64,000 nucleotides of DNA from Burkholderiales bacterium JOSHI_001 (GTDB taxonomy: Bacteria; Pseudomonadota; Gammaproteobacteria; Burkholderiales; Burkholderiaceae_C): assembly GCA_000244995.1 (NCBI GenBank), contig CM001438.1, positions 310,001 to 374,000 of the forward strand. The letters are read 5' to 3'. The position numbers and the translations under genes are program-made. The notes under the pieces were generated by a model, which was not told where the DNA came from, ran no database searches, and saw nothing but the letters and a program-made list of their open reading frames with translations. Below are positions 8,973 through 47,115 of this stretch, piece by piece; positions within the stretch are counted from its first letter, which is position 1; every line of letters starts with the position of its first letter.

Positions 8973-9920
8973 ATGCACCCAGCAGAACGGATCCCCGACC
9001 CGCGTCATGCCCACGCCAGCCGAGGCTGGTGGTTGGGCCTGGCCGGCGTGTTGATGTTTGCGCTCACCATCCCCATGACCCGCTTGGCCAGTGGTTCTGT
9101 GGCCAACCCGCAGTTGAGCGCCGCCTTCGTGGCCATTGGCCGCGCGGCGCTGGCCGGGCTGCTGGCGCTGGCCTACCTGCGGGGGGTGCAGGCCCCCTGG
9201 CCCACACCCGCACAGTGGCGGGCGCTGGCGGTCACGGCCAGCGGGGTGGTGTTCGGCTTTCCGCTGTGCATGGGGCTGGCGGTGCGGCAGGTGGAGGCGG
9301 TGCACGCGGCGGTGGTCACCGGTTTGCTGCCCTTGGCCACCGCGGTGGGCGCGGCGCTGTGGCTGCGCCAGCAACCGCCGCGCGCCTTCTGGGCCACGGC
9401 GGCGACCGGGGCGGCCCTGGTGCTGGCCTACGCGGCCTGGCAGGGCGGCGCCCAACTCCAGCCGGCCGACGCGCTGCTGCTGGCGGCGGTGGTTCTGGGC
9501 GCGCTGGGTTATGTGTCGGGGGCGCGCCTGTCGGCGCAGATGCCGCCGGAGCACGTCATTTCGTGGGCCCTGGTGCTGGCGCTGCCCTTTTGCCTGCCGT
9601 GGACGCTGCTGAACCTGCCCACGCAGCCGGTGCGGGCGGTTTCATGGGTCGCTTTCGGCTACGTGGCCGTGGTGTCCATGTGGCTGGGCTTTTTCGCCTG
9701 GTACCGCGGCCTGGCGCTGGGCGGCACCTTGCGCGTCAGCCAGGTGCAGTTGGTGCAGCCCTTCCTGTCGATGGCCTTCGCGCTGCCCCTGTTGGGCGAA
9801 CAGCTGGATGCGCCCACACTGGGGTTCGCGCTGGCGGTGATGGCCTGCGTGCTGGTGTCGCGTCGCCTGGCCGCGCCGGCGCTGCCCGCACCGGCAAAGC
9901 CCGCTGTCGCCGCGTCCTGA
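8973..9920 (+). CDS. EamA/DMT-family exporter
   Basis: Inner-membrane protein of about 315 residues with ten predicted membrane segments in two homologous halves, as in the drug/metabolite transporter (EamA) family that exports amino acids and related metabolites. The ends of the halves contain the typical patterns AVHAAVVTGLLPLATAV and SQVQLVQPFLSMAFALPLLG. The ATG at 8973 (MHPAERIPD) is taken as start; an upstream in-frame GTG-like start at 8955 would sit inside the operator region. It diverges from the MocR gene and is followed by an aminotransferase, suggesting export of an amino compound under MocR control. Confidence 0.85.
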   Translation: MHPAERIPDPRHAHASRGWWLGLAGVLMFALTIPMTRLASGSVANPQLSAAFVAIGRAALAGLLALAYLRGVQAPWPTPAQWRALAVTASGVVFGFPLCMGLAVRQVEAVHAAVVTGLLPLATAVGAALWLRQQPPRAFWATAATGAALVLAYAAWQGGAQLQPADALLLAAVVLGALGYVSGARLSAQMPPEHVISWALVLALPFCLPWTLLNLPTQPVRAVSWVAFGYVAVVSMWLGFFAWYRGLALGGTLRVSQVQLVQPFLSMAFALPLLGEQLDAPTLGFALAVMACVLVSRRLAAPALPAPAKPAVAAS

Positions 9921-39100: not shown

Positions 39101-42100
39101 CGTCCACCTGGGCGGTGGTCAGGGCGGCGACCTGGGCGCTGCTCAGCGCCACGACCTGGTCGCTGCTCAGCGCGGCCACGGCGGCGTTGGACAGGGCCTT
39201 GATGGCGTTGGTGGACAGCGCGGCCAGGTCGGCGGCCGAGATGGCCTGGGCCTGGTCGCTGGACAGGGCGGCGGCCTGCAGCGTGGTGAAGGCGCCGATC
39301 TGGCTGCTGTCCAGCGCGGCCATGGCTTCGGTGTCCAGGCCGGCGATCTGCAGCGTGCCGAGGGCGGCCACCTGGCCGGTGGTGAGCGATGCCACCTGGG
39401 CGCTGGTCAGGGCGTCCACCTGGGCCGAGCTGAAAGCGCGCAGCTGGGCGCCGGTCAGGGTGCGCAGGTCGGCGGTCTGCAGCGCCACCATCTGGTCGGT
39501 GCTCAGGCTGGGCAGCTGGGCGGTGGTGAGCGAAGCCACCTGGGCGCTGGTCAGCGCCACGATGGCATCGGTGTCCAGGCCAGCCAGCTGGGTGCTGGCC
39601 AGGCCGGCCACCTGCGCGGTGGTGAGCGAGGCCACCTGGGCGGTGGTGAAGGCGTCGAACTGGTCGCTGCCCATGGCGCGCAGCTGGGTGCTGCTCAGGG
39701 CGCGCAGGTCCGCGGTCTCCAGGGCGGCCAGCTGGTCGCTGGTGAGCGCGGCCACCTGCAGCGTGGTCAGGGCGGCGGCCTGGGCCGTGCTCATGGCCAC
39801 GATCTGGTCGGTGCCCAGGGCGGCGATGGCGGCGGTGGACAAAAGGCGCAGCGCGGTGGTGGACAGCGCGGTGATGTCACCCGACGCGCTGGAGCCCAGG
39901 GCGGCCACCTGGTCGGACGTCATCGACGCGGTCTGCGCGCTGGTGAGCGCGGCCACCTGGGCGGTGGTCAGCGCGGTGATGGCGGCGGTGTCCAGGCCGG
40001 CGATCTGGGCCGTGCCCAGGCCCGCGATCTGGACGGTGCTGAGGTTGGACACCTGGGCCGTGGTCAGCGCGTCGATCTGGGCCGAGTCCATCGCGTTCAG
40101 CTGGGCGGTGCCCATGGCGCGCAGGTCGGCGGTCTGGATCGCGGCCACCTGGTCGGTGGACAGTGCGGCCACCTGGTTGTTCGCCAGCGACGCCACCTGG
40201 GCGCTGGTGAGCGCCACCACCTGGTCGCTGCTCAGGCCGGCGATGGCGGCGGTGGACAGCGCGCGCAGCGCGGTGCTGGTCATCGAGCCGATGGCGGCGG
40301 TGGACAGTGCGGCGGCCTGCTCGGTGCTCAGGGCCACGGTCTGCGTGCTGGTGAGCGCGGCCACCTGCGCGCCGGACAGCGCGCCCATGGCTTCGGTGTC
40401 CAGGCCGGCCAGTTGCGCCGTGCCCAGGGTGCCCAGGCGCACGGCGGCCAGCGACGCCACCTGGTCGCTGGTCAGGGCGTCGAACTGGGCCGAGTCCAGC
40501 GCGTTCAGCTGGGTGCTGCTCATGGCGCGCAGGTCGGCGGTTTCAAGGGCCGCCACCTGCTCGCTGGTCAGCACGTGCATTTGGGCGGTGCTCAGGGCAC
40601 CGGCCTGCAGCGTGCTCAGCGCTTCGATCTGGTCGCTGGTCAGCGCGGCCGTGGCGGCGGTGCTCAGCGCGCGCAGCGCGTTGGTGCTCAGGGCGCCGAT
40701 GTCGCGGGTTTCGATCGCGGCCACCTGTTCGGTGGTCAGCGCGGCGGCTTGCGTGGTGCTGAGCGCGCCCACCTGCAGGCTGGTCAGCGCGGCGATGGCT
40801 TCGGTGTCCAGCCCGGCCAGCTGGGCCGTGGTCAGGGCGGCAATCTGCGGGTTGCCCAGCGCGGCCACCTGGGCGGTGGTCAGGGCGTCGATCTGGGCGC
40901 TGGAGAAGGCCGTCACCTGCGCGGTGTTCAGCCCCGCCAGGTCGGCGGTTTCGATCGCGGCCACCTGTTCCGTGGTCAGCGCGGCGATCTGCGCCGTGGT
41001 CAGCGAACGCAGCTGCAGTCCCGACAGGGCGGCGATCTGGGCCGTGTCCATCGCCGCGATGGCGGCGGTGCTCAGCGCCTTCAGCGCGTTGGTCGACAGC
41101 CCGGCCAGGTCGGCGGTTTCCATCGCGGCCACCTGGTCGCTGGACAGCGCGGCGGCCTGTTGGGTGGTGAAGGCGGCCAGCTGGCCCGAGCTCAAGGCGG
41201 CCATGGCGGCCGAACCCAGCCCGGCCAGCTGGGTGGTGCCCAGCGCGGCGATCTGGCCGGTGGCCAGCGCGGCGATCTGGGCCGAATCCAACGCGGCGAT
41301 CTGGTCGGAATCCAGCGCGCGCAGTTGCGCACTGCCCAGGGCCGCCACCTGGGCGGTAGTGAAGGCGCCCAACTGGTCGGTGCCCAGCGCGGCCACGGCC
41401 GCGGTGCTCAGCGAGCGCAGGGCCAGGGTGTTCAGCGCGGCGATGTCGCCAGTTTCGATTGCGGCGACCTGGTTGGACGACAGCGACGCCAGCTGCGTGG
41501 CGTTGAGCGCGCCCACCTGGGCGCTGGTCAGGGCGGCCACCGCTTCGGTGTCCAGGCCGGCCAGTTGGGCGCTGCCCAGGCTGCCGATCTGGGCGCTGGT
41601 CAGGGCGGCCACCTGCTCGGTGGTCAGCGCGTCGATCTGGGCCGAATCCAGCGCGCGCAATTGCAGGCTGGACAGGGTGCGCAAGTCGGCGCTGTCGATG
41701 GCGGCCAGCTGGGCGCTGGTCAGCGCATGCAGCTGGGCGGTGGTGAGCGCGGCCACCTGGGCGCTGGACAGCGCGGCAATGTTCTCGCTGGACAGGCCGG
41801 CCGTCTGCACGGTGCTCAGGCCCGCCAGTTGGGCGGTGGACAGCGCGGCGATCTGGGCCGAGTCCAGCGCGGCGAATTGCGCCGAGCTCAAGGCGCGCAG
41901 CTGGGCGCTGCCCAGGCCCGCCAGGTCGGCGGTTTCGATCGACGCCAGTTGTTCGGTGGTGAAGGCGGCCACCTGGCCAGTGGTCAGGGCGGCGAGCTGG
42001 GCGCTGCCCAGCGCCACCACCTGGTCACTGCCCATCGCCGCCACGGCGGCGGTGGTGAAGGTGCGCAGCGTGGCGGTGCCCAGCGCGGCGATGTCGGCCG

Positions 42101-43184
42101 AATCAATCGCCGCCACCTGGGCCGAGCTGAGCGAGCCCCCCTGCAGCGCGGTGAGCGCGCCCACCTGGGCGCTGGACAGGGCGGCGATGGCGGCGCTGTC
42201 CAGCCCGGCCATCTGGCCGCTGGACACGCTGGCCACCTGCGCGGTGGTGAGGGCGGCCACCTGGTCGGTGCCCAGCGAAGCCAGCTGGTCGCTGGACAGG
42301 TTGCGCAGCTGCGCCGCGGTCAGCGCGCGCAGGTCGGCGGTTTCCAGCGCGGCCAGCTGGTCGGACGACAGGGCCGTCACCTGGGCGCTGGTCAGGGCCA
42401 CCACCTGGGCCGTGCCCAGCGCGGCCACGGCCTCGCTGTCCAGGCCGGCGATCTGGGCGGTGCTCAACGCCGCCACCTGGCCCGTGGCCAGTGCGGCCAC
42501 CTGGGCACTGGTCAGGGCGTCCACCTGGGCCGAGCTGAAGGCCTGCAGCTGCGTGGCCGACAGGGCGCGCAGGTCGGTGGTCTGCATCGCCGCCACCTGG
42601 TCGGACACCAGGGCGTGCAGCTGGGTGGTGGTGAGCGCGGCCACCTGGGCCGTGGTCAGGGCCTGCACCTGGTCGGTGTTCAGGGCCGCGACGGCGTCGC
42701 TGGACAGGGACTTCACCGCATTGCTGGACAGCACCGCCACGTTGGTGCTGCTGATGGCCGCCGCCTGGGTGGCCGACAGCGCCGCGGCCTGCGCCGTGGT
42801 CAGCACCGCCATCTGCTGTGTGCCCAGGGCGCCGATGGCCTCGGTGTCCAGCCCCGGCAGTTGCGCGGCGGTGAGCGCGGGTACCTGGGCGGTGGTGAGC
42901 ACGCTCACCTGTTCGGTGGTCAGCGCGTCGATCTGGGCCGAGCTGAAGGCGCGGATCTGGCCGGTGGAAAACAGCACCAGGTCGCGTGTCTCGAAGGCCG
43001 CGATCTGGGCCGAATCCAGCACCGACAGGCCCAGGGTCGAAATCGCCCCGATCTGGTTGGTGCCCAGGGCCGCGATCTGGTCGGTGGTGAACGCAGCCCA
43101 GTCCGCCGTGCTGAGGGACGAGATCGAGCGCGTGGACAGCGCGGCGATCTGTGCGGTGGACAGGGAAGCAATGATCGAGGGCAT
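33150..43184 (-). CDS. Giant octapeptide-repeat protein 2 with FrpC-like calcium module
   Basis: A protein of 3344 residues, paralogous to giant protein 1. Residues 1-3112 are octapeptides starting in register at the Met (MPSIIASL, STAQIAAL, STRSISSL, STADWAAF). 3112 equals 389 x 8, although one unit has 11 residues and another has five. Residues 3113-3344 are the FrpC-like module: VSPIVLDLDGGG, GWVGGLDGLLALDRNGDGS, INNGSELFG, DSNADGVLNASDANW, VWVDANHDGQTDGGEL. Ser again replaces the scissile Asp of FrpC. The C-terminus ISDDALRHQVLI parallels that of protein 1. ATG 43184 has AGGA nine bases upstream and a sigma-28-like promoter about 76 bases upstream. Composition is dominated by Ala, Thr, Ser, Leu, Gln, Val, Asp. 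No secretion gene is adjacent. Surface fibre, adhesin or secreted structural roles are inferences. Confidence 0.87.
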   Translation of the reverse strand: MPSIIASLSTAQIAALSTRSISSLSTADWAAFTTDQIAALGTNQIGAISTLGLSVLDSAQIAAFETRDLVLFSTGQIRAFSSAQIDALTTEQVSVLTTAQVPALTAAQLPGLDTEAIGALGTQQMAVLTTAQAAALSATQAAAISSTNVAVLSSNAVKSLSSDAVAALNTDQVQALTTAQVAALTTTQLHALVSDQVAAMQTTDLRALSATQLQAFSSAQVDALTSAQVAALATGQVAALSTAQIAGLDSEAVAALGTAQVVALTSAQVTALSSDQLAALETADLRALTAAQLRNLSSDQLASLGTDQVAALTTAQVASVSSGQMAGLDSAAIAALSSAQVGALTALQGGSLSSAQVAAIDSADIAALGTATLRTFTTAAVAAMGSDQVVALGSAQLAALTTGQVAAFTTEQLASIETADLAGLGSAQLRALSSAQFAALDSAQIAALSTAQLAGLSTVQTAGLSSENIAALSSAQVAALTTAQLHALTSAQLAAIDSADLRTLSSLQLRALDSAQIDALTTEQVAALTSAQIGSLGSAQLAGLDTEAVAALTSAQVGALNATQLASLSSNQVAAIETGDIAALNTLALRSLSTAAVAALGTDQLGAFTTAQVAALGSAQLRALDSDQIAALDSAQIAALATGQIAALGTTQLAGLGSAAMAALSSGQLAAFTTQQAAALSSDQVAAMETADLAGLSTNALKALSTAAIAAMDTAQIAALSGLQLRSLTTAQIAALTTEQVAAIETADLAGLNTAQVTAFSSAQIDALTTAQVAALGNPQIAALTTAQLAGLDTEAIAALTSLQVGALSTTQAAALTTEQVAAIETRDIGALSTNALRALSTAATAALTSDQIEALSTLQAGALSTAQMHVLTSEQVAALETADLRAMSSTQLNALDSAQFDALTSDQVASLAAVRLGTLGTAQLAGLDTEAMGALSGAQVAALTSTQTVALSTEQAAALSTAAIGSMTSTALRALSTAAIAGLSSDQVVALTSAQVASLANNQVAALSTDQVAAIQTADLRAMGTAQLNAMDSAQIDALTTAQVSNLSTVQIAGLGTAQIAGLDTAAITALTTAQVAALTSAQTASMTSDQVAALGSSASGDITALSTTALRLLSTAAIAALGTDQIVAMSTAQAAALTTLQVAALTSDQLAALETADLRALSSTQLRAMGSDQFDAFTTAQVASLTTAQVAGLASTQLAGLDTDAIVALTSAQVASLTTAQLPSLSTDQMVALQTADLRTLTGAQLRAFSSAQVDALTSAQVASLTTGQVAALGTLQIAGLDTEAMAALDSSQIGAFTTLQAAALSSDQAQAISAADLAALSTNAIKALSNAAVAALSSDQVVALSSAQVAALTTAQVDVLTTEQLAAMQTGDLRALATVQLAALDSAQIDALTSAQVAALTVAQVAGLSTAQLAGLDSEAIAALSGSQLAALTTAQAAALSTDQLAAMETADVASLTGAQLRALTSAQMDAFSSAQVAQLSATQLAALASTQVAGLDTEAIATLNGTQLAALTTQQTAALSTAQAAALASSHIASITTAALRSLSTGALAALGTDQVAQFSSAQVGALTTQQVAALGTEQVAAIETADLRALTGTQLAALGSDQVAAFTSVQAPAFTATQLAALATNQVTHLTTDALAALSSDQVGALTAAQVGVLTTAQALAIETGDIAALKLASLSTAAAAALSSDQIVALTSAQVATLTTAQMAALDTEQLAAIQTADLRALGSAQLRALSSAQFDALSTDQVAALSTAQVAALGSTQLAGLDSEAIVALGTAQMGAFTNAQLAAFNSAQMAALESADLRALNTSQVRAFASDQIGALDTTQVAAFTTAQVAAFTSTQVAGLDTEAMAALTSAQLAGLATAQAVAFTATQAAALATDSLAAMNSGALRALSTAATAALTTEQVAALTSAQAAALTTTQMDVLTTDQVAAIETRDLVALNSAQLRVLDSAQAAALGTDQVAALTTAQVAALASAQLAGLGTDAMAALTSGQVAALTATQTVGLTSTQVAAIDSGDIASLSTAALRAITTDAVAAMGSEQLVALTTAQAAALGTNQVAALTTEQVAGLATDDLRALSSAQLRSLGTDRIDALTSDQVAALTSAQVAGLAASQFAGFDTEALATLSGAQVAAMTTAQLAALSSGQIAAIDSADLAGLSTAQLAAFGSAQIDAMTSDQVAGLTTAQVASLSTVQLAGLDTDAIAALTSAQVGAITASQAAALSTAQALAIDSADIAALSTNALKSLTTAAVHGLESGQIQAITTAQIGALTTAQLVAMTTEQVAAIETADLRAMGTAQVRAFGSDQIAALSTDQVAALTTAQVAALANGQLAGLASDDFAALDSAQVVALTSAQVGALSATQAAALATAGLAAMASATLRSFSTDAFAALTTDQIVALTSNQAALLSTQQVAAMTSDQIVAMESSDLRALTSAELRAWSSAQVDALTSTQVAALQASQVATLATGQLAGLDTEAIAALGSAQVAALTTAQAGALSSAQALAIDSGDFAALSTAAVAALSTGAFAALATDQIVALTVGQAAALTTAQMDVITTEQLAAMQSDDLRALGSAQLRTLDTAQIDALTSVQVAALTNTQFGNLAASQMAGLDTEAMAALTAGQVAAMTTAQAATLSSDQVAAITTADIGSISTNALRAIGVGAFGGMTSDQVGALTQGQVVALTTAQVHALDSAQIGAIETAELAAMSLAQVAAFTSDQIDALSTGHVAALTTAQLASLSSLQLPGLDSEAMAALSSAQIAALTTAQIDVLSTEQLAAMESGDIHALNSNQLRALDSAQVDALTSEQVAALTASQFASLTSVQLAGLDTEAIGALGTAQWAALTNTQASALTSTQAAAIETADLAVMGTAAIAALTTTAVAELTTDQIVALTAAQATALTTAQVAAFSTEQVAALQTGDLDGLLTTQLRAWDSAQVDALTTEQVAALTTAQVASFSAVQLAGLDTDAIAALSSAQVGAFTTAQAAAFSTAQALAIDSADIHALSTNALRALSTDAVHALSSDQLVALGTAQVASLTNAQVAALSTEQFAAIATDDIAAMTTGQVGAFTTDQVAAFTTDQIVALSTRQIAAFDMTQVAALESDDIGAMSGDQLNALLAVSPIVLDLDGGGVNTLAAAQGVNFDLMGTGQSAQVGWVGGLDGLLALDRNGDGSINNGSELFGNGTLNAEGQRAANGYQAMAWQDSNADGVLNASDANWNQLRVWVDANHDGQTDGGELQTLAEAGVAEIGLASSSGSALDNGNLLGLVGSYTATDGSSHAAADVWFAKDTADLPALGDLLAAPAAALVGAEAASTSTNVTVASASEDVAVVNLGLPSISDDALRHQVLI
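33849..43184 (-). repeat. Array of 389 tandem octapeptide units with a 17-unit superstructure
   Basis: Reading the first ~1100 residues by eye, the units fall into blocks of 17 octads (136 residues, 408 bases) recognised by the landmark [DS][TS]EAIAAL, with shorter blocks of 10 and 14. Position-specific units recur: unit 4 SSDQVAAI, unit 5 ETGDIAAL, unit 6 STNALRAL, unit 12 ETADLRAL, unit 14 DSAQIDAL, unit 17 STAQLAGL. Units 4-6 and 11-13 resemble each other, so a seven-unit sub-block probably duplicated; the 10-unit blocks lack those seven. Confidence 0.85.
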
Positions 43185-43259
43185 GAGGGGCGTTCCTGCG
43201 GGTTGTTTCGGGTCGGCCTCCGGCCCCGGAAGGGGCGGGAGACACGCACTTCAGGACGG

Positions 43260-43286
43260 TTATCGGCGCGTGGACCCCGGCCTTGA
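43260..43286 (-). promoter_or_regulatory. Sigma-28 (FliA)-like promoter of giant gene 2
   Basis: On the minus strand TCAAG (43286-43282), a 14-base spacer, then a perfect GCCGATAA (43267-43260), 76 bases before the start codon. This matches the flagellar sigma-28 consensus in both boxes and spacing. Confidence 0.72.
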
Positions 43287-43322
43287 GACGCCGGGCGGCC
43301 CCGGCGGGCGGGCGGTTCGTGT

Positions 43323-43350
43323 GAACTGACCGGTGCGAACCGGTCAGTTC
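43323..43350 (-). terminator. Perfect hairpin after the subtilase gene
   Basis: GAACTGACCGGT (43323-43334) and ACCGGTCAGTTC (43339-43350) form a perfect 12-pair stem with a four-base loop, 16 bases beyond the subtilase stop and upstream of the giant gene 2 promoter. There is no U-run. It insulates the two transcription units. Confidence 0.7.
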
Positions 43351-43366
43351 GGCGCCGATGCGGCGG

Positions 43367-45163
43367 CTACAGCGCCAGGCTGAGCTGGTAGGCGCCGGTG
43401 GCGCCGCTGGCCCGCCAGACGCGCAGCACCAGCGGCGCGGCGCTGGTGCCGGCGTTGGTGATGGTGAATTGCCGCGTCAGCCCGGCGCTGCCGCTGGCCG
43501 ACACCACCAGGGCGCCGCTGGCGGTGTAGGCCGCCAGTGAAAAGGCCGAGCTGCTGCCCTGGGTGAGGGTGGCCACCAGCTTGGCGCCTGCAGGCAGGCT
43601 GAGCTTGAAGTAGTCGTTGTCGCTGGTGCTGGCGATGCTGCCGCCCACCCGGGCCGGCAGGCTGGCCACGGCCTGGGCGCCACCCAGGCTGTTGTTGGGT
43701 TCCTTGTCGGTCACGGCCAGCACGCTGACCACCGGCGTGGGCGTGGGTGTCGGCGTGACCGTGCTGCCCTGCGCGGCGGCCACCGCGGCGTTGGCGTCCA
43801 CCAGGCCGGCGCCGCAGCCGCTGCAGGCGGCCGGGAAGGCGCGGGCACTGCCCTTCAGCAGCGTGGCCACCTGGTCCGGCGTGAGTGTGGCGTTGCTCGC
43901 CAGCATCAGGGCCGCGGTGGCGGCCACCACCGGTGTGGCCATGGACGTGCCCATGTAGGCCGCGTAGCTGTCGGCCCCCGGCGTGCTGCTGCCGGCGTTC
44001 AGCGTGGACAGGATGCCGTAGCCGCTGTCGCCGCCCGGCGCGGCCAGGGTGACGGTGGCGCCGCTGTTGGAATAAGACGCCTTGCCGCCGGTCTTGCCAG
44101 TGGCGGCCACGACGATGGTGCCGCTGCAGTTGGCCGGCGTGGCGCTGGCCGCGTCGGTGGCGCTGTTGCCAGCGGCCACCACCACCACCGCCCCCTTGGC
44201 GCGGGCGGCGTTGATGGCGCTTTGCATCGTCGTGCCGCAGGCGCCGCTGCCGCCCAGCGACAGGTTGATCACCCGCGCCGGCGTGGTGTTCGTGGGCAGC
44301 CCGGTCACCGCGTTGCCGGCCGCCCAGGTGATGGCGTCGGCAATGTCGGAGGTGTAGCCGCCGCAGCGGCCCAGCACGCGCAGCGGCAGCAGCTTGGCGC
44401 CATGGGCCAGGCCGGCCACGCCGCTGGCGTTGTTGGCCACCGCGGCCACGATGCCGGCCACATGGGTGCCGTGCCAGGAACTGGTGGAGGCGGCCGAGCC
44501 GCTGCCGCACTGGCCGGCGCTGGTGAAGTCGCCGGGGTCGCTGGGGTCGGCGTCGCGGCCGTTGCCGTCGCCGGCGATGGCGGTGTCGGTGATGAAGTCG
44601 TAACCCGCCAGCAGGTTGGCCTTCAGGTCCGCGTGCGGGCGCACCCCGGTGTCCACCACTGCCACCACCACGCCAGCGCCGCTGCTGCGGTCCCAGGCGG
44701 CGGGCGCGCGCACGCCGGCGGTGGTGTCGCTCCAGGCCCATTGCTGGGCGTACAGGCTGTCGTTGGGCACGCCCAGGGTCTGCAGGCGCAGGTCGGGCTC
44801 GGCGTATTCGATGTCCGGGTCGCCGGCGCGCAGGCTGGCGGCCAGGGCCAGGGCTTCGTCGTGGCGCAGGGTGCGGTTGGCGCGCAGCACCTGGGCGCCG
44901 TTGGCCAGGTCGCGCAGCCGCCCCAGGCTGACGCCCTGGCGGTTGGCCGCCACGCGCAGGGCGTTTTCGGTGCGGGCCGCCGCCGCGGCAGTGGGCAGGG
45001 CGCTGGTGCCGGCGCTGCGGTACTTCACGATCAGCCGGTCGGTGGCCTCGGGCCCGGCGTTGGCAGGACGGCCGGCGTCAAAGCGCTGGGCCTGGGCGCT
45101 GGCGCCCAGCACCAGCAAGCACGCGGCCAGGGCGGCGCGAAGCGGCAAGGAAAGGGTCTGCAT
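43367..45163 (-). CDS. Secreted subtilisin-like serine protease (S8) with PPC domain
   Basis: Protease of 598 residues. A Sec signal peptide (MQTLSLPLRAALAACLLVLG, cleavage near ASAQA-Q) is followed by a ~120-residue propeptide (DRLIVKYRSAG) and an S8 catalytic domain. The complete triad is Asp171 (VVAVVDTGV), His231 (WHGTHVAG) and Ser407 (MGTSMATP), with oxyanion Asn333 (AAGNS). A Thr/Pro linker (TVTPTPTPTPVV) and a C-terminal pre-peptidase (PPC) beta-domain (KEPNNSLGGAQAV, DNDYFKLSLPAG) follow. It resembles extracellular proteases exported by type II secretion. The leader holds a c-di-GMP-I riboswitch. It lies codirectional and immediately upstream of giant gene 2, so it may act on the giant proteins; that link is inference. 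Confidence 0.93.
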   Translation of the reverse strand: MQTLSLPLRAALAACLLVLGASAQAQRFDAGRPANAGPEATDRLIVKYRSAGTSALPTAAAAARTENALRVAANRQGVSLGRLRDLANGAQVLRANRTLRHDEALALAASLRAGDPDIEYAEPDLRLQTLGVPNDSLYAQQWAWSDTTAGVRAPAAWDRSSGAGVVVAVVDTGVRPHADLKANLLAGYDFITDTAIAGDGNGRDADPSDPGDFTSAGQCGSGSAASTSSWHGTHVAGIVAAVANNASGVAGLAHGAKLLPLRVLGRCGGYTSDIADAITWAAGNAVTGLPTNTTPARVINLSLGGSGACGTTMQSAINAARAKGAVVVVAAGNSATDAASATPANCSGTIVVAATGKTGGKASYSNSGATVTLAAPGGDSGYGILSTLNAGSSTPGADSYAAYMGTSMATPVVAATAALMLASNATLTPDQVATLLKGSARAFPAACSGCGAGLVDANAAVAAAQGSTVTPTPTPTPVVSVLAVTDKEPNNSLGGAQAVASLPARVGGSIASTSDNDYFKLSLPAGAKLVATLTQGSSSAFSLAAYTASGALVVSASGSAGLTRQFTITNAGTSAAPLVLRVWRASGATGAYQLSLAL

Positions 45164-45168
45164 GGAAT

Positions 45169-45185
45169 GCCTCGTTGAATGAGGC
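45169..45185 (-). promoter_or_regulatory. Shine-Dalgarno-sequestering hairpin (riboswitch expression platform)
   Basis: On the minus strand GCCTC-ATTCAAC-GAGGC forms a five-pair hairpin ending five bases before the subtilase ATG. GAGG is the likely ribosome-binding site, so the hairpin would block translation. Its position between the riboswitch and the start codon suggests it is the expression platform. Confidence 0.55.
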
Positions 45186-45198
45186 CAGTGCGCGAATG

Positions 45199-45280
45199 CC
45201 CACCGGCAACCCCGCTACCGTGGCGCTGCGCGCGCTGTAGGCCGGAGGCTTTGCGTCCCACGCTTTCACGTGGTTTGCGA
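45199..45280 (-). promoter_or_regulatory. c-di-GMP-I (GEMM-I) riboswitch
   Basis: Transcribed leftwards ahead of the subtilase gene. The minus-strand RNA reads UCGCAAACC, ACGU-GAAA-GCGU (P2 with GNRA tetraloop), GGGACGCAAAGCC, UCCGGCCUA, a GC-rich P3 arm, then GGUAGC, GGGGUUGCCGG. These are the conserved core elements of the GEMM-I aptamer, including the ligand-contacting A of GGGACGC and the CCUA/GGUAGC tetraloop receptor. A TATCAT -10-like box lies just upstream (45297-45302). Confidence 0.95.
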
Positions 45281-45349
45281 AATGAAACTGGATGTAATGA
45301 TAGGGGTGGCGGTGGGCGCGCGGCCTGCCGCTCATCCGCCAGCCCGGGG

Positions 45350-45373
45350 CTTGTGCGCATTTGTCGGCACAAG
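45350..45373. promoter_or_regulatory. Inverted repeat upstream of the MFS gene
   Basis: CTTGTGC (45350-45356) and GCACAAG (45367-45373) are perfect arms with a ten-base spacer, 38 bases before the MFS start codon and in the region shared with the divergent subtilase leader. It is operator-like; the binding protein is unknown. Confidence 0.4.
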
Positions 45374-45411
45374 TTCTGGCGGCTTCGAACGCTCTGCCAC
45401 ACTGACCCCCC

Positions 45412-47115
45412 ATGCGCCTACCCAACCTGCTGGCCACCCGCCGCGGCCGCCTTGTCGCCTTCTTCTTCCTGTACGTGACCGAAGGCATCCCGCTGGGCTT
45501 TGCGGCCACGGCCATCGCCACCCAGCTGCGGCGGCAGGACGTGGGGCCGGCCGAGATCGGCGCCTTCGTGGCGTCTTTCTACCTGCCCTGGGCCTTCAAG
45601 TGGGCCTTCGGGCCCGTCATCGACGTGTTCTCGTCCGAACGCCTGGGCCGGCGGCGCGGCTGGATCCTGGGCACGCAGCTCATGCTGATCCTCACCCTGC
45701 TGGCCTGCACCACCATCCAGTTGCCAGCGCAACTGGGCCTGCTGACGGCGGTGCTGCTCATCCACAACAGCTTCGGCGCCATGCAGGACGTGGCCATCGA
45801 CGCATTGGCCGTCACCACCCTGCACCCGGACGAACGCGGTCTGGCCAACGGCATGATGTTCGGCGGCGCGGCCATCGGCCAGGGCATCGGCGGCAGCGGC
45901 GTGCTGTTCCTGATGCCGGTGCTGGGCGTGGCCGGCGGCTTCGTCTTCGTGGCGGCCTGCATCGCGCTGGTGACGGTGTTCATCGTGCTGCCGCTGCAGG
46001 AGCCGGCCACCCCGCTGGCCGATCGCCGCGAAGGCGGCCTGGGTGCGGCCGTGGCGGCGATGAAGGCCTTCTCGGCCGAGGCCTTCCGCAGCTTCCTGGG
46101 CACGCGCGGCGCCTACGTGGGCATGCTGTTCTCGCTGCTGCCGGCCGGCGCCATGGGCCTGGGCCTGGCGCTGCAAAGCAACCTGGCAGTGGAAGTGGGC
46201 ATGAGCGACGACAGCGTGGCCTGGCTGGCGCTGTGGACCCAGGTGATCAGCGCGGTGTTCATGGTGGTGGGCGGGCAGTTGTCCGACCGCTGGGGCCGCC
46301 GCCGCACGCTGGGCGTGTACCTGTCGCTGATGAGCCTGCCGGCGCTGTACATGATGGGCGTGCTGCTGGACCACCAATGGGTGATGCCGGTGCCGCAGAA
46401 CGCCGCCGAAGGCGCGCGCCGCGTGGCCCCGGCCGCACTGGTGACCGCGGTGTGGGTGGCCACGCTCACCTATTCGGTGGCGCAGGGCCTGATGTATGGC
46501 ACCCGCTCGGCGCTCCTGATGGACGTGACCAACCCCAAGGTGGCGGCCACCCAGTTCACCGCCTACATGGCGATGATGAACCTGGTCATTTCCTATTCCG
46601 CCGCCTGGCAGGGCATCGCGATCGAAACCCTGGGCTACCCCAAGACCCTGCTCATCGACGCCATCACCGGCCTGTTGTGCGTGGCGCTGCTGCCCTGGAT
46701 CAAGCCCTCGACGGTGAACGAGGACGGCCATGGCGCCGCCCGCGCGCGCCGCACCGCCTGGGTGCTGGCCATCGGCTGCCTGGCCTGGTTGCCCTACCGC
46801 AGCGGCCTGTTCAGTGCGGGCGCGGCGGCACCGATGTTCGAGACCCTGTTCACCCTGGTCTTCGTGGCGGCGGCCGTGTTCCTGGCCACGGGGTCCATGG
46901 TGCTGGGTGCTGCGGCGGGCCGCCTGGGCCGCCTCGGCCTGTGGCTGGCGCCGCTGCTGCTGGCCATGTACCTGCGCAAGTGGTGGCCGCAGGCCGGCGC
47001 GCTGTACCTGCTGGTGCCGGCCCTGGCCGCCGGGGTGCTACTGGCGCAGGCCCGGCAGGCCTGGTCGGGCTTGAAAGGGGCGGGTGCGGTGCCGGCCACG
47101 GCCGCCCTGGCCTGA
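45412..47115 (+). CDS. MFS transporter (AmpG/PAT-like)
   Basis: Inner-membrane protein of 567 residues with about 14 hydrophobic segments. The opening FFFLYVTEGIPLGFAATAIA, then FYLPWAFKWAFGPVIDVFSSERLGRRRGWIL (motif A region) and the DVAIDALAVTTL segment resemble AmpG and acetyl-CoA-transporter-like (PAT) MFS proteins. A second motif A is SDRWGRRRTLGVY. AmpG carries anhydromuropeptides, but homologues with other substrates exist and the C-terminus here is extended, so the substrate is uncertain. It lies upstream of boxR but is probably separately transcribed. Confidence 0.82.
   Translation: MRLPNLLATRRGRLVAFFFLYVTEGIPLGFAATAIATQLRRQDVGPAEIGAFVASFYLPWAFKWAFGPVIDVFSSERLGRRRGWILGTQLMLILTLLACTTIQLPAQLGLLTAVLLIHNSFGAMQDVAIDALAVTTLHPDERGLANGMMFGGAAIGQGIGGSGVLFLMPVLGVAGGFVFVAACIALVTVFIVLPLQEPATPLADRREGGLGAAVAAMKAFSAEAFRSFLGTRGAYVGMLFSLLPAGAMGLGLALQSNLAVEVGMSDDSVAWLALWTQVISAVFMVVGGQLSDRWGRRRTLGVYLSLMSLPALYMMGVLLDHQWVMPVPQNAAEGARRVAPAALVTAVWVATLTYSVAQGLMYGTRSALLMDVTNPKVAATQFTAYMAMMNLVISYSAAWQGIAIETLGYPKTLLIDAITGLLCVALLPWIKPSTVNEDGHGAARARRTAWVLAIGCLAWLPYRSGLFSAGAAAPMFETLFTLVFVAAAVFLATGSMVLGAAAGRLGRLGLWLAPLLLAMYLRKWWPQAGALYLLVPALAAGVLLAQARQAWSGLKGAGAVPATAALA

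Follow-up and report, generated by a model that had tools for sequence, protein, structure and literature searches.

A c-di-GMP-I riboswitch predicted to silence translation of a presumably secreted S8 subtilase

The 64,000-base stretch of Burkholderiales bacterium JOSHI_001 analysed here (positions 310,001 to 374,000 of contig CM001438.1, hereafter the window) carries an element that is, by sequence, a canonical c-di-GMP-I riboswitch, matching the Rfam model over its full length. It probably controls translation of the adjoining gene, which encodes a presumably secreted S8 subtilase, and most likely does so as an OFF switch. That the riboswitch is in control of the subtilase had been proposed in an initial annotation of this DNA, and the proposal is supported at the sequence level by the covariance match together with a conserved, covarying expression platform around the Shine-Dalgarno sequence.

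To identify structured RNAs, the Rfam gathering threshold was applied to all 64,000 bases with cmscan. The c-di-GMP-I aptamer (RF01051) was the sole match in the window to reach it, scoring 71.6 bits (cut-off, 35 bits) and aligning to all 87 positions of the model (minus strand, 45289-45202; Table 1). In a search of the whole genome, a single contig of 5.6 Mb, two c-di-GMP-I aptamers were reported and the one in the window obtained an E value of 9.7e-14, so the match lies far beyond chance. The initial annotation had described the hallmark elements of a GEMM-I aptamer in a given order on the subtilase strand, and the Rfam alignment bears this out: the core matches the consensus at GCAAAcc, the GAAA loop, GACGCAAA, CUA, AGC and GCC. 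It had also placed the element correctly, at 45199-45280, with ends that were a few bases off (45202-45289 in the Rfam match). The aptamer is located on the subtilase strand, in the 5' leader of the gene, with 38 nt between its end and the ATG at 45163. Columns invariant in 29/29 aligned aptamers include A38-A40, G75, C76 and C84, among which we take the ligand contacts G20, A47 and C92 of Vc2 to be represented. A consensus scan of 43100-45500 found no sigma-70-type promoter; a possible -10 element was read directly from the sequence (Table 1). A second Rfam element, M23, at 43483-43545 on the opposite strand, scored 23.1 bits, below its cut-off of 41.2, and was dismissed as weak.

Table 1. 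Coordinates of the riboswitch, its predicted expression platform and the neighbouring genes within the window.
Feature	Position	Strand	Remarks
Possible -10 element TATCAT (tentative)	45297-45302	-	Read from sequence; 7 nt before the first base of the aptamer
c-di-GMP-I (GEMM-I) aptamer	45202-45289	-	Rfam RF01051, 71.6 bits, E 4.7e-12, full model
X 5' arm GCCGGUG	45201-45207	-	Begins on aptamer G83, C84, C85
X 3' arm CACUGGC	45184-45190	-	Covariation in orthologues
Y 5' arm GCCUC, anti-Shine-Dalgarno	45181-45185	-	Two-base overlap with X
Y 3' arm GAGGC with Shine-Dalgarno GAGG	45169-45173	-	5 nt before ATG
S8 subtilase, 598 aa, presumably secreted	43367-45163	-	Pfam PF00082, E 1e-52
Perfect 12-bp inverted repeat	43323-43350	-	16 nt past the subtilase stop; without U run
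Giant ALTTAQ-repeat protein, 3344 aa	33150-43184	-	PF20080 repeats
Giant ALTTAQ-repeat protein, 2147 aa	26616-33059	-	PF20080 repeats

The gene downstream of the aptamer encodes a member of peptidase family S8, in which VVDTG, HGTHVAG and GTSMATP are the Asp, His and Ser motifs. Its catalytic domain (about residues 132-465) is followed by a C-terminal extension, and its N-terminus, judged by eye, resembles a signal peptide, in line with a presumably secreted enzyme. Among solved structures, the best match was 5yl7_A (E 2.9e-114), with AprB2 and AprV2 also among the best; the catalytic domain is homologous to those of the secreted subtilases AprV2, AprB2, BprV and the 5yl7 protease. The inverted repeat that follows the stop codon may mark a boundary between the subtilase and the giant gene further downstream; it was not called by the terminator scan. 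Ten S8 matches were found in the genome in all, and its two c-di-GMP-I switches both precede members of this family. The second switch (G000:C1:2537547-2537633 (-), loci L002 and L003) is located upstream of a subtilase that shares 34% identity over 434 residues with the one in the window and belongs to another clade, and the architecture of its leader also differs. The genome carries 44 GGDEF matches and therefore likely encodes c-di-GMP makers. A LapG-like peptidase (PF06035, G000:C1:2440133-2440465 (+)) lies near one of the GGDEF matches (2441340), perhaps forming a LapD/LapG pair.

Between the core of the aptamer and the start codon, two short overlapping hairpins, X and Y, constitute the predicted expression platform (Table 1). 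Both were present in 16/16 switch-bearing orthologous leaders. These comprise the window and 15 aptamer-bearing orthologues, 12 from genomes of the same family and three from MAGs (L052, L068 and L070); in the S8 tree described below, they are the members of the window's clade that carry the switch. At positions 4-7 of X, 45 of 48 possible pairs among the 12 distinct arm pairs were standard; in 20,000 shuffles of the 3' arms, a control that retains the common descent of the leaders, the count averaged 32.9 and never exceeded 43. When Watson-Crick pairs at X positions 4-6 alone were counted instead, the observed value was matched by 1/20,000 shuffles. Over the 15 distinct leaders, standard pairs amounted to 102/105 for X and 88/90 for Y. 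Sliding the 3' partner by 1-3 bases brought these down to 15-54% and 27-44%, respectively, a comparison in which the shared ancestry of the leaders remains. In L212, the Shine-Dalgarno arm of Y varies together with its partner (GCCUU with AAGGC). The leaders therefore combine a conserved helix that sequesters the Shine-Dalgarno sequence (Y) with an overlapping alternative helix (X), both covarying, as expected for a translational switch.

We then evaluated how specific this arrangement is. An automatic search for the layout of X, Y and Shine-Dalgarno over 146 c-di-GMP-I sites detected it at 13 of the 52 sites followed by a GTSxAxP protease motif versus none of the 94 others, while shuffled downstream sequences yielded on average 0.0 and 0.1 occurrences, respectively. 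The window accounts for one of the 13 positive sites and its 12 orthologues from the family for the rest. At two further sites, L236 and L245, the layout recurs with GGUCUC/GAGACC as the arms. Of the 94 sites without the protease motif, four combine X with a Y-like hairpin that lacks a Shine-Dalgarno, about as many as shuffling would yield (3.3). A platform common to all c-di-GMP-I switches of the family was rejected because the layout is absent at most sites (94/94 without and 39/52 with the GTSxAxP motif) and the genome's second switch has a different leader. A transcription-terminator platform was also rejected: no U run follows X or Y, and a terminator scan of 43100-45500 was empty on the minus strand.

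These elements suggest how the switch could operate. In the ligand-free state, GCCGGUG at the end of the aptamer would pair with the downstream CACUGGC to form X; this would remove two bases from the anti-Shine-Dalgarno hairpin Y, GAGG would be held less tightly and the protease would be made. Upon binding of c-di-GMP, the aptamer would claim GCC, X would open, and Y (GCCUC with GAGGC) would be completed, hiding the Shine-Dalgarno sequence. In this model, motile, dispersing cells with low c-di-GMP would make the protease and sessile cells would silence it. The second base of the X 5' arm, C84, is invariant in 29/29 aptamers and unpaired in the Rfam structure, and we take it to be C92 of Vc2, presumably a ligand-contacting nucleotide. 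Given this invariance and the presumed contact, X and the bound aptamer are expected to be mutually exclusive; if the ligand does claim C84, X would be lost and Y would win. The aptamer match, the two conserved, covarying hairpins with their overlap, the identity of the gene and the recurrence in relatives were observed directly; binding of c-di-GMP in the cell, exclusion of X by binding, the OFF direction and a role in dispersal or nutrient scavenging are inferred.

The direction of the response was evaluated by folding models. The mean cost of opening the Shine-Dalgarno sequence over the 16 leaders was 3.9 kcal/mol when X was allowed versus 7.0 kcal/mol when GCC was kept unpaired, and by this energy proxy 14/16 leaders agreed with an OFF switch, while L068 and L070 went the opposite way. 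In the full window leader with the aptamer pairs enforced, P(X) was 0.96 and P(Y) 0.51; with both Cs kept unpaired as well, the values became 0.21 and 0.96, respectively. The first P(X) value, obtained with the Rfam pairs enforced and nothing else, shows that these pairs tolerate X. When the full leader was folded unconstrained, P(X) was 0.81 alongside a P(Y) of 0.86, with little weakening of Y by X; the contrast between the two hairpins appears in the full leader only when the aptamer is enforced. The probability of the Shine-Dalgarno sequence being unpaired in the window was 0.06 and 0.00 in models of the leader alone and 0.01, 0.04 and 0.01 in models of the full leader. Because it is mostly paired in every one of these models, the predicted switching range is modest.

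The largely formed Y in unconstrained folding and the two dissenting leaders would also fit an ON switch acting on the same target, in which c-di-GMP would raise protease synthesis, for example with Y as the default structure and disfavoured by the bound aptamer. Switches of this class with both directions exist (PMC6366702). This possibility is weakened by the preference of the other 14 leaders for OFF and by the two bases contested by X and Y, X moreover including the invariant C84 of the aptamer, and we consider it unlikely. OFF is therefore treated here as the better-supported direction, as a prediction of the models and not as a result.

Next to the subtilase, on the same strand, two genes encode giant ALTTAQ-repeat proteins (Table 1). 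The non-repeat C-termini of the two proteins are alike by eye and resemble calcium-binding stretches. A tRNA-Ala predicted by ARAGORN at 40629-40728 (+) lies antisense inside an ALTTAQ-repeat gene and was rejected as a probably spurious, chance fold. The initial annotation had drawn attention to a protease beside giant repeat proteins; their adjacency holds in the window, and the neighbourhood was not found in the other loci examined. If the riboswitch governed the subtilase and the giant proteins together, the protease could trim or release the latter, as LapG does LapA or PPEP-1 does CD2831. Such a unit would be in keeping with the distance of only 182 nt from the subtilase stop to the next start codon, and there are precedents for the release of surface proteins by proteases under c-di-GMP control (PMC7865049, PMC6584795). 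However, no ALTTAQ-like frame was detected when 90 other sources (L003, L051-L139) were scanned for the motif; these were switch regions and relatives of the subtilase gene including flanks of up to 10 kb. One genome, G021, does carry both; there, no ALTTAQ frame was found within the 17 kb that surround the orthologous subtilase (L129), and ALTTAQ, at least among the matches listed, lies about 675 kb away. In the window itself, the 12-bp inverted repeat stands between the genes. A conserved operon with the giant ALTTAQ genes was rejected on the basis of the scan and of the distance in G021, and joint control appears very improbable. Since the giant proteins are not neighbours of the subtilase in other examined loci, they should not be read into the system.

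Slightly less probable still is a relic aptamer, or one that binds c-di-GMP and leaves the gene uncontrolled. Clostridioides difficile has some non-functional c-di-GMP riboswitches (PMC6366702) and one member of the window's clade has no aptamer, but the full-length match to the Rfam consensus and the covarying platform kept in 16/16 switch-bearing orthologues argue against this reading.

To assess the history of the pairing between switch and subtilase, a tree was built from 61 S8 proteins chosen by hand, 37 with a switch and 24 without. The switch label requires four changes on this tree, at least three of them being forced by well-supported branches; the deep joins are unsure, with long branches. 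The subtilase of the window falls in a clade of 17 (support 95/89), of which 16 carry the switch, and the X/Y platform was found in one subtilase clade. In L051, the switch-free member of the window's clade, no aptamer was found either by our own covariance model or by Rfam. At this locus (9869-9886), the subtilase and its GAGGC Shine-Dalgarno are kept, and neither the aptamer nor the GCCUC anti-Shine-Dalgarno arm is seen. L051 thus provides a natural switch-free comparison. Our own model, R1, has a poor first stem and served for site finding, not for pair counts. Among 78 named loci with subtilase relatives, 63 were scanned for the aptamer, the 15 from Actinomycetota being left out. An aptamer was located directly upstream in three of the 63 (L052, L068 and L070), and L083 gave a weak match of 16.1 bits elsewhere in the locus. 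None was found in the scanned Massilia, Sphaerotilus and Xanthomonadaceae loci.

In a sample of 299 genomes of the window's family, at least one c-di-GMP-I match was found in 87. A hand count gave 149 sites, of which 146 in 86 genomes were used after the three weakest-scoring were left out. Downstream genes were assigned by a simple open-frame rule, by which some genes are misassigned; 145 genes were obtained, as one site extends beyond the end of its contig. The start codon lies within 200 nt of the aptamer for 112/145 of them and for 33/34 of the S8 genes. With a Pfam threshold of E 1e-5, S8 was the most frequent downstream family, with 34/145 genes (25/72 and 9/73 in the two halves of the set), the related genomes not being independent; FliE came second with 16/145 (3 and 13). 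The subtilase had been called an unexpected target, a view that does not hold, because no family is found more often downstream of c-di-GMP-I in these genomes. The 34 switch-linked S8 loci were identified by their catalytic motifs, with totals equal to those of Pfam in both halves, and are distributed over 32 genomes and 19 genera, as tallied from genus labels.

A further 18 sites precede a gene with the GTSxAxP motif and without a Pfam S8 match. One of them, L163, was compared with solved structures and gave a sedolisin match (E 1.9e-6), which suggests a second protease family (sedolisin, S53) under the switch. Matches to reprolysin-like metallopeptidases were observed for the genes downstream at L020 and, weakly, L032, possibly a third protease family. 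In one genome, two switches (L174 and L182, G307:C1:434001 and 436357) are separated by about 2.4 kb and an S8 frame follows each of them, apparently through tandem duplication of the whole switch-subtilase unit. We give about even weight to a broader reading, in which the c-di-GMP-I switches of this family (probably Sphaerotilaceae, Burkholderiales) are largely a layer of protease control: subtilases of several clades and sedolisin-like proteases would each be placed under the switch, with a conserved OFF platform in at least one clade, and extracellular proteolysis would be silenced at the RNA level at high c-di-GMP.

With the RF01051 class, the window switch shares the full-length covariance match and the position in a 5' leader on the strand of the gene; it differs in its target, a presumably secreted S8 subtilase, and in its platform of overlapping hairpins on the Shine-Dalgarno sequence. 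A close parallel is found in C. difficile, where a c-di-GMP-I riboswitch mediates repression of the protease PPEP-1/ZmpI when c-di-GMP is high (PMC7865049, PMC6366702). Like the predicted arrangement in the window, the zmpI/PPEP-1 leader (Cdi1_12) places a c-di-GMP-I element before a secreted protease that is off at high c-di-GMP. In contrast, Cdi1_12 precedes a zinc metalloprotease and the class I switches of C. difficile act by transcription termination (PMC6366702), whereas the window has a serine protease, a Shine-Dalgarno hairpin without U run and a Burkholderiales-type genome. The two class I switches of Vibrio cholerae respond in opposite directions, and neither works through termination (PMC6366702). 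The LapD/LapG/LapA system resembles the window in logic only, in that low c-di-GMP favours extracytoplasmic proteolysis; it relies on another protease family and on a c-di-GMP-binding protein, unlike the proposed control by RNA (PMC6584795). A full-text search, in which subscription journals are thinly covered and which is therefore weak evidence, gave no report, among the matches listed, of an S8 subtilase or peptidase under a c-di-GMP-I switch. The riboswitch class is thus a known one, and its recurrent S8 subtilase target is apparently unreported.

The conserved leaders represent compact, Shine-Dalgarno-based candidate OFF sensors of c-di-GMP for Gram-negative bacteria, and the covarying X/Y platform leads to a sharp prediction, namely that the protease would be off at high c-di-GMP. 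Riboswitches of this kind are usually described as controlling motility, chemotaxis and adhesion (PMC6366702). A secreted protease as the top target family would tie the decision between sessile and motile life directly to extracellular digestion.
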